DNA from: Sphingomonadaceae bacterium
GTDB taxonomy: Bacteria > Pseudomonadota > Alphaproteobacteria > Sphingomonadales > Sphingomonadaceae
Assembly: GCA_947476425.1 (NCBI GenBank)
Contig: CANJQJ010000010.1
Span: 1-64,000, forward strand
Direction of reading: 5' to 3'
Length of the DNA: 64,000 nucleotides
The notes beneath the pieces were generated by a model. It searched no databases and had not been told where the DNA came from. It saw only the letters and a program-made list of their open reading frames with translations. The position numbers and the translations under genes are program-made. This document shows positions 27,332 through 34,302 of this stretch, one piece after another (positions within the stretch are counted from its first letter, which is position 1; each line of letters opens with the position of its first letter).

Positions 27332-27631
27332 TCAGGCGCTTCCCGGTGCGCCAAGCAGGCGCCTGTGGATTGCCTCCAGCGGATTGGCATGCGCCGTCGC
27401 GGGGATGTCATCCGCGCGAATAATCTCAGCGATCGCGGCCTGGCGTTGGCCGACGCTGTCGAGCGTCTGCAGCGCAATGACGAATTTGTTGACGACATGC
27501 GCATCGCAGCAAAGCGTGTCCGCCAGCGATTCCAGCTGTTCGCGTGCAAGCACGAGTTCGTCGGCAAGCAGATTCAGGATCGCGCGCGTATCGGCGTTTT
27601 GCGCCGGTTCTGCAGGAGTGGCTGACACCAT
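27332..27631 (-). CDS. Small unknown protein at the end of the chemotaxis operon
   Basis: The 99-residue product is predicted to be mainly helical and acidic in its middle (ADELVLAREQLESLADTLCC ... VIALQTLDSVGQRQA), with no signal peptide or membrane segment. I do not recognise the family. It begins three bases after the stop of the second cheB, so it is co-transcribed and probably works in chemotaxis signalling. The helical content would suit a small coupling or phosphotransfer accessory protein, but no conserved histidine motif is evident. Confidence 0.6.
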   Translation of the reverse strand: MVSATPAEPAQNADTRAILNLLADELVLAREQLESLADTLCCDAHVVNKFVIALQTLDSVGQRQAAIAEIIRADDIPATAHANPLEAIHRRLLGAPGSA

Positions 27632-27634
27632 CGT

Positions 27635-28696
27635 TCAGGCCGCCTTGTTCTTGGCGAATTCGCGACAGCTCTCCAGGGCAGCGGAGGCGATCGCATCGAG
27701 CGGCAGCTCGACCTCGACCGCACCGATCGCCTTGGCGGCGGCGGGCGCCTCATAGACGACCGAGGTTGCCTGGTCCTGGGCGATCGTTCGAGCGCCCGAT
27801 ACGCGCAAGGCCTTCAGCCCTGCGGCGCCATCCTTGCCCATGCCGGTCAGCATGATGCCGATCGCGTTCGAGCGCGCCGTCTTCGCGCAAGTGGCGAACA
27901 GCAGGTCGATTGACGGGCGGCGGCCATTGACGGGCTCGGCTGGCAGCAGGCGCATGCAGGGATCCGGCCAGCGGTCGATGACGAGATGTGCGAGTTCCGA
28001 AGTTGCGATGTAGATCTTGCCCTGTTCGAGCTGGGCGCCATCGACCGCCGGGACGACATGGGCATGCGTCACCGAATCGAGCTCCTCGATCAACGCATCC
28101 GTGAAGCCCGAGCCGAATTGCTGTACGATGACCGTCGGCGGGCAATTTTCCGGGAAGCGGGGAAGCAGTTCGAAGAGCGCTTCGACGCCGCCGGTGGATC
28201 CGCCGATCGCGATTATCTTGCCGTTCCAGCGGAAATTGCTCGACGCTGCGGGACGCCGCGCGCGGCGGGCGTGGCGCTCCTCGGTGCTGATCACCTTGCC
28301 GGTAGCGGCGGCGAGCACGAGTGCGACAAGCTTTGGCTTGAGGCGGTTGAATTCCTCCATCGAGGTCGATGTCGGCTTGGGGAAGCTGTCCACCGCGCCG
28401 AGCCGAGCCGCCTCGATCGAGGCCTTGGCGCCCTTCTGGGTGAGCGTGGAGAGCATCACCACCGGCATGGGCCGATCGCGCATCGTCTCTTCGAGGAAAT
28501 CCAGGCCATTCATGCCCGGCATTTCGATATCCAGCGTCATTACGTCGGGCTTGAGCGCGATCATCATCGCGCGCGCCTCATCCGCATTGGCGGCAGCGCC
28601 GATGACCTCGACGCCCTCGGCACCGTCGAGGATCTGCGAAATCAGCGCTCGCATGGTCAGCGAGTCATCGACGATCAAAACACGGGCTGAACTCAT
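27635..28696 (-). CDS. cheB: CheB paralogue with altered methylesterase active site
   Basis: A 353-residue CheB: receiver domain (VLIVDDSLTMRALISQIL; Asp in VMTLDIEMPGMNG), linker, then methylesterase domain. The catalytic Ser is in AIGGSTGGVEA and the Asp in MLTGMGKDGAAG, but the segment that carries the catalytic His (VQHMP in CheB) reads VIVQQFGSGF, codons CAG CAA TTC, so His is replaced by Gln. The other cheB of this operon keeps the His. The protein probably binds or regulates rather than demethylates receptors, or uses another His. It follows cheW by 50 bp. Confidence 0.85.
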   Translation of the reverse strand: MSSARVLIVDDSLTMRALISQILDGAEGVEVIGAAANADEARAMMIALKPDVMTLDIEMPGMNGLDFLEETMRDRPMPVVMLSTLTQKGAKASIEAARLGAVDSFPKPTSTSMEEFNRLKPKLVALVLAAATGKVISTEERHARRARRPAASSNFRWNGKIIAIGGSTGGVEALFELLPRFPENCPPTVIVQQFGSGFTDALIEELDSVTHAHVVPAVDGAQLEQGKIYIATSELAHLVIDRWPDPCMRLLPAEPVNGRRPSIDLLFATCAKTARSNAIGIMLTGMGKDGAAGLKALRVSGARTIAQDQATSVVYEAPAAAKAIGAVEVELPLDAIASAALESCREFAKNKAA

Positions 28697-28746: not shown

Positions 28747-29193
28747 TCAGGCAGCTTCGCTCAGTGGTGGAACGTCCTTGTCGAGCGCGAGCGCATCGAG
28801 CGAGAGCACCATGACCATGCGATCATCGACCGAAACCAGGCCCTCGAGGAAGGACGTGGCGCCATCGCCGAGCGACGGCGGCGGCTGGAGATCCTCGCTT
28901 GCGATCGAGACGATGTCGTTGACGCCATCGACGATCAGGCCCTGGAGCTGGTCGGCAATGCGCACCACGATGATCACGTGGCGCTGGGTCGGCTCGGTCA
29001 GGCCCCAGCCAAGCCGCGACGAAAGGTCGACCACGGGAAGCACGGTGCCGCGCAGGTTGACGACGCCGCGCACATGGGCGGGCACCTGCGGGAGCAGTGT
29101 CGTGGGAGACCATGCCCGGATTTCGCGGATCGCCATGATATCCACGCCGAGATACTGCTCGCCGATCTGGAAGGTGATGAGCTGACGGGACAT
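28747..29193 (-). CDS. cheW: Chemotaxis coupling protein CheW
   Basis: The 148-residue protein is a single CheW domain that links chemoreceptors to CheA: QLITFQIGEQYLGVDIMAIREI, then the RGVVNLRGTVLPVVDL core, then VIIVVRIADQLQGLIVDGVNDIVSI. It lies between cheY and the second cheB on the minus strand. Length is normal for free-standing CheW. Confidence 0.92.
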   Translation of the reverse strand: MSRQLITFQIGEQYLGVDIMAIREIRAWSPTTLLPQVPAHVRGVVNLRGTVLPVVDLSSRLGWGLTEPTQRHVIIVVRIADQLQGLIVDGVNDIVSIASEDLQPPPSLGDGATSFLEGLVSVDDRMVMVLSLDALALDKDVPPLSEAA

Positions 29194-29216: not shown

Positions 29217-29588
29217 TTAGTGAAGTACGCGGCGGACGGCCGACGCGAGCTTTTCGGGGTCGAAGGGCTTGACGATCCAGCCGGTGGCGCCCGCATCGCG
29301 AGCCCGTGACTTCTTCTCGTTGGAACTTTCGGTTGTGAGCACCAATATCGGCGTCGAATCCCAGCGGGTTTCCCCGCGCAACGCCTCGATCAGGCCGAAG
29401 CCATCCATGCGCGGCATGTTGATGTCGGTGATGACCAGGCCGGGCGAGTTGTCGCGAAGCCATTCCAGTGCGGCGACCCCATCCTCGGCTTCGACGACTT
29501 CATAGCCTCGTTGCGTCAATGCGTTGCGCAGCAGCATCCGCATGCTCTTCGAATCGTCGACAGTCAGGATCATTTTCGACACGGACAA
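29217..29588 (-). CDS. cheY: Single-domain response regulator CheY
   Basis: The 123-residue receiver domain has the acidic pair in LTVDDSKSMR (Asp11, Asp12), the phospho-acceptor Asp55 in ITDINMPRMDG, the conserved Thr in LVLTTES and the Lys in GWIVKPFDP. No output domain is present. CheY-P would act on the flagellar switch or serve as a phosphate sink. It is 121 bp after cheD, a larger gap than the others, so it may have an extra promoter. Confidence 0.9.
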   Translation of the reverse strand: MSVSKMILTVDDSKSMRMLLRNALTQRGYEVVEAEDGVAALEWLRDNSPGLVITDINMPRMDGFGLIEALRGETRWDSTPILVLTTESSNEKKSRARDAGATGWIVKPFDPEKLASAVRRVLH

Positions 29589-29709: not shown

Positions 29710-30288
29710 TTAGAACAGTTCGACATCGCCGGATCCCTTCGTGCTCACTGGCGGCGTGACCTTGCGCTGCAACACCTCGACATTCTGGACGACCCGGCAG
29801 CGCGCCTGGCCCGATTGCGCCCGGAAATCGACCCGGCGGGCGTCGATGCCGCCGACATGGCTGTGGATCAGCGGGATGCCGTCGTCGCGCAGGAAATCCT
29901 GCGCGAACTGGATGTTGGCCGTGCCGATCGTTTTCATTCCGGAGTGGAGATTGGCGCCGCCATAGAGGTGCGCACGGATCCGGCTTCGCACGGCGCCGGC
30001 CTTGAGCATCTCGTTGATCAGCATCTCCATCGCATAGACGCCATAACGCTGCGATTCCGCGCCTTCGGAATTGTTGAGCCCGGCGGGGTGTGAAAGCAGG
30101 AAATGGTTCATCCCGCCGATATGGGCGATTGGATCGTAGAGGCAGGTCGCGATGCAACTGCCGAGCACGGTGGTCAGGATAATGTCGGGCTTGCCTGTCA
30201 CATAGCTTGTGCCCTGGAGGACGTTGACGCGCCGTTCGATCCCGCTGCCGGCACCGATGTGAAATTCCTGATGGTCTATGCGCTGCAT
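29710..30288 (-). CDS. cheD: Chemoreceptor glutamine deamidase CheD
   Basis: The 192-residue protein has the catalytic Cys in [14 protein letters not shown] and the His in [11 protein letters not shown], followed by [18 protein letters not shown] and AHLYGGANL, all standard for CheD. It deamidates receptor glutamines to glutamates so that they become CheR/CheB substrates. Its start lies within the end of cheB (13-bp overlap). Receptors must be encoded elsewhere. Confidence 0.92.
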
Positions 30289-31301
30289 AGCTGGATGGCC
30301 CTCCGACCAATCCTGGCGAGCGGAAGGATCTCGTCGACTGCGCCGAGTTCCGCAGCAACACGCGGCATCCCGTAGACAACGCAGCTATCCTCGTCCTGGC
30401 CAATGGTCTGGGCGCCGGTCTGCCGCATTTCGAGCAACCCGGCGGCACCGTCGGCACCCATCCCGGTAAGCAACACGCCGAGGGCATTTTCGCCGATAGT
30501 CGTGGCGACCGAGCGAAACAGCACGTCCACCGAGGGACAATGGCCCGATACCGAGGGCGCATTGACGAGGCGAATGATCGGGCGAGCGGCAGTTCCCGCG
30601 ATCATCAGGTGCCGCTCTCCGCCCGGCGCCAGATAGACATGGCCGCTTTCCATCGCCTGGCCATCCTCGGCCTCAGTGACGATGGGGAGCGAACATGCAT
30701 CGAGCCGGGCGGCAAGCGCGCGCGTGAAGTTTGCCGGCATATGTTGGACGATTGCAGTCGGCGGACAATTGGCAGGGAAGCCCTGCAACATCTGCATCAA
30801 TGCCTCGACGCCACCGGTCGATGCGCCAACCGCAATGATGCGGCTGGCTGAACGAAAGTCTTCAGGCGGCGCGGCCGCCTTGATGGGCGGCCCGAACTGG
30901 CGTTTGCGGCGCCCGGCCTGCTTGACGATCTCGGCAAGTTTTCCATCATCGCTGGAGAGCACGTCGCGCATCGCGCCGGTTGGCTTGCCATAGCATTCCA
31001 CCGCGCCAAGCGAGAGCGCGCGCACCGATGCCTCGGCGCCCTTGTGGGTGAGCGTCGACACCATCACCACCGGCATAGGCCGCAGTTTCATGATCTTTTC
31101 GAGAAATTCGAGCCCGTTCATCTCGGGCATCTCGATATCGAGCGTGATCACGTCGGGATCCATCTCGCGGATCATCTTGCGAGCGGCGGGCGCATTGTGC
31201 GCGGTGCCGATCACCTCGATATCGGGATCGCGTGCGAGCAAGGTCGAGATCAGCGCCCGCATCGTGGGGCTGTCATCGACGACGAGTGCCCTGACTGTCA
31301 T
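30276..31301 (-). CDS. cheB: Chemotaxis response regulator protein-glutamate methylesterase CheB
   Basis: The 341-residue enzyme has an N-terminal receiver ([18 protein letters not shown]; Asp in [13 protein letters not shown]) and a C-terminal methylesterase with an intact triad: Ser in [11 protein letters not shown], His in [11 protein letters not shown], Asp in [12 protein letters not shown]. It removes methyl groups from receptors, and deamidates some. It overlaps cheR by four bases (ATGA). This is the canonical CheB of the operon, in contrast to the paralogue near the operon end. Confidence 0.95.
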
Positions 31302-32179
31302 GCGCTGACCTTTCGAAATGTGGTCTGGCCAACCGAAACAAGCCGCGAGGCCAGCGTCGAGGGGACCCGCTCGCTGTGACCGATATAAAGATAACCGCCT
31401 TCGGCCAGGTGATCGGTAAGGCGATGGAGAAGCGTTTCCTTCGTCACATCGTCAAAGTAGATCATGACGTTGCGGCAGAATATCACGTCGAACTTCTGCT
31501 TGATCGGCCAGGGATCGAGCAGGTTTAGACGGCGAAAGCGAACGATGTCGCGCAACCGCTTGTCGATCAGGAAGTTCGAGCCGACATTGCTGGTCCACAT
31601 CTCGGCCAGCGGCTTGGGTATGTCGCGCAGGCTGGCGCTCGAATACTCGCCCTTTATACCCGCATCGATGCAGTGCTGCGCCAGATCTGTAGCGAGGATG
31701 GCGATGTCGGCATCCAGGATCTGGCGTGCGAGCTGGCTGTTGGTACCCATCATCGCAAGCGAATAGGCTTCCTCGCCGGAGGATGACGCCGATGACCACA
31801 TGCGTACGCGCTGTTTCGACCTGAGCTCGTCAATCAGCGTCGATCGCACTTGCTCCTCGAAATGATCGAAATGATGCGACTCACGGAAGAAATTGGTGTG
31901 GTTGGTCGTGAGCGCCTCGATCGCGATCTTGCGTTCGGCGCTGTTGGTACGGATCATCTCGACATAATCGGAAAATGAACGCAGCCCTTGTGCGCGAAGC
32001 AGCTTGGTGAAGCGCGAGAAGATCAGCATCGCCTTTTCGCGCGGCATGACGATTCCGGCATGCGCGTGAATCAGCGTCGAGATCATCTCGAAATCCGCCT
32101 GGGTATAGACGAACTCGCCCGTCCCGGGGAATTCGGTCTTTGGCGATACCCGTCCCGGATTCAACATCAGCTGGCTCAT
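31298..32179 (-). CDS. cheR: Chemotaxis protein methyltransferase CheR
   Basis: The 293-residue protein has the N-terminal helical CheR domain ([19 protein letters not shown] ... [18 protein letters not shown]) and a SAM-binding methyltransferase domain ([32 protein letters not shown]). It methylates receptor glutamates. It overlaps both cheA and cheB by four bases. There is no C-terminal pentapeptide-binding TPR extension, so it is of the short type. Confidence 0.93.
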
Positions 32180-34302
32180 GCTGCAAGCCGTCTCGTTGAT
32201 TGGCTGGTGAGGGCTTCGACGTCGAGGATCAGGGCTACGCGGCCATCGCCGAGGATTGTGGCGCCGGAAAGGCTATCGACTGGTCGATAGTTGGTTTCGA
32301 GGCTCTTGATCACGACCTGGCGCTGGTCGAGGATGGCGTCGACCATCAGCACGGACTGGCCGCAACTGTCGGTTTCGACCACGATCAGCACCGCTTTTGT
32401 CGGGTCTTGCGTCGAACTGTCGATGCCGAGGCGAGTGCCAACCGATTCGATCGGAAGGAACGTGCCGCGAACGTTGAGCATCTGACGCCCGTTGCCGATT
32501 GATTTGAGCTCGGAGGCTTGGGGGCGCAGGCTTTCGACGATGTGGGTGAGCGGGATGATATAGGTTTGCGCACCGACGGAGACGATCATGCCGTCGAGGA
32601 TCGCGAGCGTCAGCGGCAGCGCCAGCGTGAAGGTCGAACCCTGGCCCGGACGGGACTGGATGCTGATCCTCCCGCCCAGCGCCTCGACATTACTGCGCAC
32701 CACATCCATGCCGACGCCGCGGCCTGAAATATTCGAGACGGCCTCCGCAGTGGAGAAGCCTGCCGCCATGATCAAATTGTCGATCTCTTCGTCGGCCATC
32801 ACGGTATCGGCGGCGATCAGGCCGCGTTCGATTGCCTTCTGGCGAACGCGCTCGCGATTGATGCCGGCGCCGTCGTCGGAGACGCAGATCAGGATTCGCC
32901 CGCCACGATGTTCTGCCGATAGCCGGACGACGCCGGCTGCGGGCTTGCCGGCCGCGATGCGGGCATCGGGCGATTCCAGGCCATGGTCGATCGCGTTGCG
33001 GATGAGGTGGGTAAGTGGATCGCCGATGCGTTCGACAACGGTCTTGTCGAGTTCGGTCATCTCGCCCTCGACCTGCAGGATAACCTGCTTGCCGGTCTGC
33101 TGCTCCAGTTCACGGACGATACGAGGAACCCGGCTGAAGACCGATTTGATCGGTTGCGCCCGGATCGACATCGCGCTGTCCTGGAGTTCGCGGGTGAGTT
33201 GGTCGAGATCGGTCAGCTCGTTCAACGAGGCGAGGCCATTGACCGAGAGCTTTTGCGCCAGCATCGCCTGGGTAATCACCAGTTCGCCGACCAGGTTGAC
33301 GAGCCGATCGAGCTTTTCGAGGTCGACACGGATGGTCTGGCTCCCCGAGCCGATCGACTGCGATGCATTTTGCGCCGGTTGCGCGACTGGCTGCGGTGAC
33401 GGTGCGGAAACCACCTCCGCCACCGTTGTTGCGGGCGGCTGTGGCATGGGCACTGGCGCCGGCTCGGCAGCGACGGGCGGTGCAACCGACCGGTGCAGCT
33501 CCGTGTCGTGCTGTTCGTCGTCCCGCCGCTCGATATGAAGGTCGCAGCTGTCGAGCACGAATTCGAAGATATCACGGACTTCGGCTTCGGTTACGCGCAT
33601 GGGAACCGTGAAGGTCCAGCCCAGATAGGCTTCCTCGGGATCATAGGCATCGAGCGTCGGAATCGCGGAGACGTCGGTATCAAGGAAGATCGCGCCGAGC
33701 TGGAGCAGCTCCCGGATCAGCAACATCGGCTCGCCGCCATTGGCGAGGGCGCCCTTGCCCGGACGCACTTCCAGCGACCATTGGCTCGAAGCGGAGGAAT
33801 GTTCCCCGATCGCGGTGACTTCGGCTTCGCCCAGCGACTTCATCAGGTCGTCGAAACTGAAGGCGAGGTCCGTCGACCCGGCCTGCTTGGACGCGGGATC
33901 CTCGATTGCCACGATCTCGGGTGGCCTGCCTTCGGCTGTCGCCTTGAGGATGTCGGTCACTTCCTTGTCGTCCGGGGCATCGCCCTCGCCACGTATGGCG
34001 GTGACATGATCCGAAAGCATGTCGAAGGCGCGCAGCAGGACATCGATCAGCGCTGGGGTGATCAGGAGATCGCCGCTTCGGGCGAGATCGAGCACGGTTT
34101 CGAAGTTGTGGGTATAGGCCTGGAGCGCATCGAAGCCGAATGCTCCCGAGCCGCCCTTGATCGAGTGGATCGCGCGGAAGATGGTGTTGATCGTCTCGCA
34201 ATCTTCCTTGCAGTTTTTATAAGCGAGCAGGCCGGCCTCAGCGGCGGCAAGCCCTTCTTCGCATTCCTGGAAGAAGATTTCCTGAATCTCGTCGAACTGC
34301 AC
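32176..34302 (-). CDS. cheA: Chemotaxis histidine kinase CheA
   Basis: The 708-residue kinase has a P1 phosphotransfer domain with His46 in RAIHSIKGGSGAFGF, a Pro/Ala-rich linker (about 270-315), a dimerisation domain (LVNLVGELVITQAML), the ATPase domain (HLIRNAIDHGLE; DDGAGINRERV; GRGVGMDVVRSN) and a C-terminal CheW-like P5 domain. Only one P1 domain is present. It starts 28 bp after the STAS gene and would phosphorylate the CheY and CheB proteins of the operon. Confidence 0.95.
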   Translation of the reverse strand: MQFDEIQEIFFQECEEGLAAAEAGLLAYKNCKEDCETINTIFRAIHSIKGGSGAFGFDALQAYTHNFETVLDLARSGDLLITPALIDVLLRAFDMLSDHVTAIRGEGDAPDDKEVTDILKATAEGRPPEIVAIEDPASKQAGSTDLAFSFDDLMKSLGEAEVTAIGEHSSASSQWSLEVRPGKGALANGGEPMLLIRELLQLGAIFLDTDVSAIPTLDAYDPEEAYLGWTFTVPMRVTEAEVRDIFEFVLDSCDLHIERRDDEQHDTELHRSVAPPVAAEPAPVPMPQPPATTVAEVVSAPSPQPVAQPAQNASQSIGSGSQTIRVDLEKLDRLVNLVGELVITQAMLAQKLSVNGLASLNELTDLDQLTRELQDSAMSIRAQPIKSVFSRVPRIVRELEQQTGKQVILQVEGEMTELDKTVVERIGDPLTHLIRNAIDHGLESPDARIAAGKPAAGVVRLSAEHRGGRILICVSDDGAGINRERVRQKAIERGLIAADTVMADEEIDNLIMAAGFSTAEAVSNISGRGVGMDVVRSNVEALGGRISIQSRPGQGSTFTLALPLTLAILDGMIVSVGAQTYIIPLTHIVESLRPQASELKSIGNGRQMLNVRGTFLPIESVGTRLGIDSSTQDPTKAVLIVVETDSCGQSVLMVDAILDQRQVVIKSLETNYRPVDSLSGATILGDGRVALILDVEALTSQSTRRLAA

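Follow-up and report, generated by a model that had tools for sequence, protein, structure and literature searches.

The window that we analyzed is the whole 64,000-nucleotide stretch of a contig from a Sphingomonadaceae bacterium, and it carries a chemotaxis operon on the minus strand in the order cheA, cheR, cheB1, cheD, cheY, cheW, cheB2, and a gene for a protein of 99 amino acids. The cheA gene (32176..34302, minus strand, as are all the genes that follow) encodes Hpt, H-kinase_dim, HATPase_c, and CheW domains, and after it come cheR (31298..32179, PF01739), cheB1 (30276..31301), cheD (29710..30288, PF03975, with a catalytic-type Cys kept in a GSC motif), cheY (29217..29588, PF00072), cheW (28747..29193, PF01584), and cheB2 (27635..28696). 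The small gene (27332..27631) lies directly after cheB2 and closes the run. Loci of Sphingobium, Sphingomonas, Rhizorhabdus, and Chakrabartia show the same gene order, and in Novosphingobium loci cheB2 sits apart, divergent from cheA. By its motifs and Pfam matches the cheB1 product (P0002) is a canonical CheB with a full triad, with the esterase motifs GASTGG, QHMP, and GMGADG. A sequence-only reading of this DNA had compared its His segment with that of the second CheB.

The cheB2 product (P0001) comes from an open reading frame of 353 amino acids with Response_reg and CheB_methylest domains, both above the Pfam cut-off (PF00072, 74 bits; PF01339, 167.5 bits). It also matches the CheB family model NF001965 above cut-off and is 47% identical to CheB1 across 350 columns. 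In Salmonella CheB, Ser164, His190, and Asp286 are given as the catalytic residues (PMC3180692), and the same triad is written S165-H191-D287 for Pectobacterium CheB (PMC7698151). A phmmer alignment to Salmonella CheB (1a2o) covers residues 1-338 of CheB2 with an offset constant at 3 there, and places S167, Q193, and D289 at S164, H190, and D286. Ser167 (TCC, 28196..28198, minus strand) and Asp289 (GAT, 27830..27832, minus strand) are thus retained, along with Thr168 and the GG motif beside Ser167, and the position of the catalytic His is occupied by Gln193 (CAA, 28118..28120, minus strand), the middle one of codons 192-194 (CAG, CAA, TTC; 28123-28115). The sequence-only reading had described exactly this, a Gln for the His with Ser and Asp kept, and its coordinates, strand, and codons for the gene are all correct. 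CheB2 therefore lacks the Ser-His-Asp triad of a catalytic CheB, and we refer to it as a pseudo-esterase on the strength of its Pfam domains, its clade, and its predicted structure. The receiver residues D10, D11, D56, S83, and K107 are all present, including the predicted phosphorylation site, Asp56 (28529..28531, minus strand). An AlphaFold2 model built from 61 sequences has a mean pLDDT of 94.7 and matches the full-length CheB fold in both domains (6ymz_A, Z 48.1, rmsd 1.8 across 338 residues; 1a2o_A, Z 46.9, rmsd 2.1 across 343 residues), so the proposed check by alignment and modelling gives a predicted CheB fold with Gln at the His190 position.

Relatives of CheB2 were gathered from 298 sampled genomes of the family, none of them from the source's genus, and from 80 named loci. 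We kept open reading frames of at least 200 amino acids with at least 220 query residues covered, which gave 161 matches in addition to both window CheBs, and neither copies of the window's proteins (L001, L003, L006) nor duplicates (L022, L023, and L032 are identical to others) entered the trees. In the resulting tree of 157 CheB proteins, P0001 falls within a clade of 72 rows (SH-aLRT 99, by a quick method), and all of the clade rows with a named origin are sphingomonads. The clade splits into a branch of 12 Sphingomonas rows and a branch in which P0001 stands as sister to the remaining 59, with a support of only 86. The full triad was found in none of the 72 clade rows versus 83/85 of the others, the two exceptions being L070, where the Ser is Gly, and one truncated row. 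After 57 further stretches were added, with matches down to ~203 bits, the clade comprised 83 of 214 rows (FastTree support 0.999) and the contrast was the same, 0/83 versus 129/131. These 83 rows again group together, with a support of 1.0, in a tree with masked catalytic motifs (296 columns) and, also at 1.0, in one from the receiver alone (125 columns). At least 38 of the 298 family genomes carry a member of the CheB2 clade, and for 34 of these 38 the rows obtained include a canonical CheB as well, the exceptions being G113, G173, G219, and G256. For comparisons below, "other sphingomonad CheBs" are the 103 non-clade rows that remain when 28 loci are excluded by name, namely those of other organisms, a distant copy from the source organism itself (L002), and L004, which has no row.

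The His is missing in 65 of the 83 clade rows. Residues at its position are Q (31), H (18), P (10), R (7), A (6), N (5), and a few others, and the combination of Ser, Gln, and Asp occurs in 30 rows. In each of the 18 rows that retain the His, the Ser is replaced by Asp (13) or Glu (5), so the triad has been broken by at least two routes. In L026 a His lies one residue earlier, but there the Ser is Gly. The question of whether the QQF segment of the window protein is common to its sphingomonad orthologues has a divided answer: QQF itself varies, and what all 83 share is the incomplete triad. Arg259 (27920..27922, minus strand) stands at the position of Salmonella residue 256, where 103/103 of the other sphingomonad CheBs have a His. 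The acidic residues at the nucleophile position are found in the Sphingomonas branch of CheB2, for example in L051, L055, and L064. In Chromobacterium haemolyticum, the second of two tandem CheB genes (L070, 2877-3914) reads GAGTGG, with Gly for the catalytic Ser, and may be an independent candidate pseudo-CheB.

P0001 holds four His residues, His142, His211, His213, and His237. The suggestion that a nearby His might take over did not hold up, as His211 is found in 3/83 clade members and His213 in 4/83. We also considered His142, present in 2/83, and His237, present in 83/83; the latter is likewise present in 103/103 of the other sphingomonad CheBs, and because it is universal outside the clade it is no new replacement.

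These distributions bear on two explanations that would make CheB2 less unusual. One is decay or sequencing error in a single genome, which gains from CAA being one base from a His codon and from a comparison without a genome of the same genus. We consider this extremely unlikely, given the clade-wide loss (the outcome of the check for a single-strain substitution), an open frame, an intact receiver, and close relatives with low dN/dS; an isolated sequencing error at Gln193 is unlikely in view of the clade-wide pattern and the changes nearby (FGSGFT, Arg259). The other is that CheB2 is still an enzyme, with Gln193 or another residue supporting slow methylesterase or deamidase chemistry. P0001 does keep Ser167, Thr168, the GG motif, and Asp289, and Ser, Gln, and Asp occur together in 30/83 rows, but no replacement His is conserved in the clade, elsewhere in the clade the His position holds Pro, Arg, Ala, or Asn or the Ser is lost, and the second conserved His is replaced by Arg259. 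We think this explanation highly improbable, although P0001, judging from its retained Ser and Asp, could have residual activity.

The two domains of CheB2 differ in how they are conserved. Asp10, Asp11, Asp56, Ser83, and Lys107 of the receiver are intact in 82/83 clade rows, the remaining row being truncated, and the mean column entropy of the receiver is 1.05 versus 1.25 in the 103 other sphingomonad CheBs. For the esterase domain the corresponding values are 1.76 versus 1.36, and many of the positions where conservation is lost lie at the catalytic motifs (165-174, 191-193, 259-264, 286, and 316-317). Other positions are newly fixed in CheB2: Glu70 (82/82, Lys or Arg in the others), Pro106 and Pro108 flanking Lys107 (83/83), and, at the start of the esterase domain, Trp157 (74/83), Asn158 (72/83), and Gly159 (83/83). 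Judging from this pattern, Trp157-Asn158-Gly159 and Glu70 may mark a new interface in the clade. The esterase domain keeps its length in nearly all clade rows, and its dN/dS in the 15 closest CheB2 pairs, which are non-independent and none of which includes P0001, ranges from 0 to 0.40, with ten values below 0.07. Both domains show purifying selection in close CheB2 relatives. Over all usable pairs, the median esterase dN/dS is 0.528 in CheB2 (2121 pairs) versus 0.412 in the others (2557 pairs), and the receiver medians from the same pairs are 0.259 versus 0.342, but dS is near saturation and these medians are therefore unreliable. Given the residues kept or fixed, the low dN/dS in close pairs, and the CheB-fold model, CheB2 most likely folds and is maintained even though its set of catalytic residues is incomplete.

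A receiver that is the more conserved domain of the protein, intact in 82/83 rows, is what one would expect if CheB2 were a phosphate sink, draining phosphate from CheA, losing it fast, and so speeding the decay of CheY-P, with the esterase domain as a structural remnant. In addition, CheZ was not found in the source genome, and Sinorhizobium CheY1 is described as a sink in organisms without CheZ (PMC8429497). A sink accounts for the conserved receiver but not for the maintained effector domain, whose length is kept in nearly all rows, which is under purifying selection in close pairs, and which has newly fixed residues such as Trp157-Asn158-Gly159. The adjoining small gene, whose product is a candidate phosphatase, also speaks against a sink, and we regard this explanation as rather unlikely.

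The small gene had been described as an unknown gene coupled downstream. It does adjoin cheB2, but it is not wholly unknown, as profile matches and a DXXXQ motif (D58, Q62) make its product CheT-like. According to PMC12654446, CheT carries a DXXXQ motif, is predicted to be structured like CheZ, and promotes the dephosphorylation of one of two CheYs. Gln55, Asp58, and Gln62 are present in 37/37 relatives of the small protein, and the gene lies directly 3' of cheB2 on the same strand in 47/72 clade rows (window included); in the remaining 25 it is not directly after cheB2 within the stretch examined. Among 6575 open reading frames, a profile made from sphingomonad sequences only matches proteins at the end of che gene runs in Ahrensia (L068, E 0.0016), Oricola (L075, E 0.0014), and Hyphomicrobium (L048, E 0.0006), and a protein between cheD and cheY in Algimonas (L086, E 6e-6). 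The profile-profile probability was 93 with all four opposite proteins, 60 with three, and 22 with two. The CheT model NF047973 matches neither the window protein nor the L068 and L075 proteins; it matches 4/37 relatives of the small gene at E <=0.1, and its best match is the Hyphomicrobium protein (6.5e-14, 52 bits, below the cut-off of 200). A scan with this model found it in 0/58 genomes of the class and likewise in 0/14 control genomes, and hence is uninformative. The predicted structure of the small protein (pLDDT 86.2) consists of two long helices, for which Foldseek returned no match at E 0.001 and generic helical matches with Z up to 7.3, and a PDB profile search with the family returned designed coiled coils and weak matches. 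Because NF047973 does not match and the fold searches gave no clear match, we call the product CheT-like rather than CheT proper, and propose it as a candidate phosphatase. The small gene also occurs in stretches without a visible CheB2 (L077, L078, L087, L089, and L099) and is therefore no partner exclusive to CheB2.

In some loci cheY, cheB2, and the small gene form a group of their own. In Sphingomonas sp. Y57 (L036, 5463-7326) no other che gene was found within the 13-kb locus, indicating that cheB2 does not need a CheB1 in its own operon. The same three-gene group without another che gene is seen in L013, L014, L019, and L020, the loci of genomes G113, G173, G219, and G256, each of which is ~4 kb and shows ~1.5 kb on each side of cheB2. 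The genome of L036 and these four genomes each have one weak CheA-type match, located elsewhere (E 6e-8 to 4e-9), and their other CheB-type matches also lie elsewhere.

The source genome has a second copy of CheB2, 62% identical and with Pro at the His position, on a 6.6-kb contig (C74). There it belongs to a second cheD-cheY-cheW-cheB2-small gene group (62-2869). The tetranucleotide profile of C74 shows no sign of contamination, with a correlation to the window of 0.98; pieces of the window itself correlate at 0.967-0.985, and C74 correlates with the loci of four relatives at 0.953-0.961. The cheD of this contig lies near the contig edge and lacks the Cys region found in 88/89 of the CheDs compared; truncation, misassembly, or a dead CheD are possible reasons.

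Seven receptor matches were found in the source genome, and at least two of them, neighboring chemoreceptors on contig C59, end in DWTEF and DWAEF, resembling NWETF, the pentapeptide that tethers CheR and CheB (PMC8609364). Despite the receptors and the che operon, FliM and FliG_C gave no match in this genome. FliM also escaped detection in G356, a genome that has FliG, so failing to match it counts for little by itself. Of the T2SSE-family matches in the source genome the single strong one fits a TadA-type ATPase model best, below the cut-off of that model.

The stand-alone gene groups, the weakly matching CheA located elsewhere in those genomes, and the lack of a FliM or FliG match in the source genome would all fit a separate output, in which CheB2-P binds a non-receptor partner and, alongside CheY and the CheT-like protein, regulates some other process. 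The wide replacement of catalytic-site columns and the fixation of new ones point in the same direction. Nevertheless, in many loci cheB2 lies within a full che operon, the four short loci show just ~1.5 kb on each side of cheB2, and FliM and FliG of the source genome could fall in an assembly gap. We think a separate output a fairly improbable explanation.

Our best explanation, which we put forward tentatively, is that CheB2 is a conserved, receiver-controlled pseudo-esterase that derives from CheB, binds receptors without hydrolysis, and damps or times adaptation. This is based on the absence of a full triad in 83 rows, the intact receiver in 82 of them, the purifying selection, and the presence of a canonical CheB in 34/38 genomes. 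Because this look-alike twin occurs in many relatives, CheB2 is probably kept for binding and signalling and not for cutting. CheA would phosphorylate Asp56, which would open the two domains, and the non-hydrolysing domain would then dock on the methylation helices of chemoreceptors and perhaps also on the C-terminal pentapeptides of two receptors in the source genome. CheB2 would thereby occupy positions otherwise open to CheB1 and perhaps to CheR or CheD, and so would damp or time adaptation rather than carry it out. According to PMC8609364, a phospho-mimic Salmonella CheB with Ser164Ala had unchanged affinity for the receptor body and ~2.5-fold weaker affinity for a pentapeptide-bearing receptor; this mutant still binds the receptor, so binding without catalysis is possible. 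A role as competitor or scaffold, as in the sequence-only reading, would fit this binding, by analogy, as well as the intact receiver and the predicted fold. However, the esterase domain varies more than that of the other sphingomonad CheBs, and the cleft that binds receptors may therefore have been lost; this and the stand-alone gene group count against competition as the only role of CheB2, and the weaker affinity of the mutant for the pentapeptide-bearing receptor also speaks against our explanation. A wider proposal, that sphingomonads evolved a methylation reader in which a phospho-gated CheB fold binds methyl-accepting helices with no hydrolysis and shields or competes for them, giving a balance among CheR, active CheB, and dead CheB, is possible but in our view doubtful.

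The CheB domain family and the chemotaxis circuit are already known. Among the papers listed by our literature search, which reached few subscription papers, none described a lineage-wide CheB pseudo-esterase, an inactive CheB, or one of the sphingomonad type. Given that family models class CheB2 as a CheB, a chemotaxis model built from the genome would include two enzymes for demethylation here, one of which is probably dead. If CheB2 acts as a non-catalytic CheB, a pseudoenzyme would be added to one of the best-understood signalling circuits, and nature would have provided a way to ask whether adaptation is shaped by the mere occupation of receptors, with no hydrolysis.

Compared with known systems, CheB2 shares with Salmonella CheB (1a2o; NF001965) the receiver and esterase domains, the fold, a che operon, the phosphorylation site, and the Ser and Asp of the triad, but it has Gln for the catalytic His and Arg for the His at Salmonella 256, and its whole clade is without a full triad. 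The laboratory Ser164Ala phospho-mimic is likewise a receiver-controlled CheB fold without hydrolysis, and receptor binding is described for that mutant (PMC8609364); it was made in the laboratory and lacks the Ser, whereas CheB2 is natural and P0001 lacks the His instead. As with the CheY1 sink described for Sinorhizobium (PMC8429497), there is an extra receiver protein beside CheY in an organism where CheZ was not found, but CheY1 is a CheY and CheB2 keeps a large effector domain. The small protein resembles the CheT described in Sinorhizobium and Agrobacterium (PMC12654446) in being a small DXXXQ protein at the end of a che operon, but its sequence similarity to CheT is only remote and it is unmatched by NF047973.
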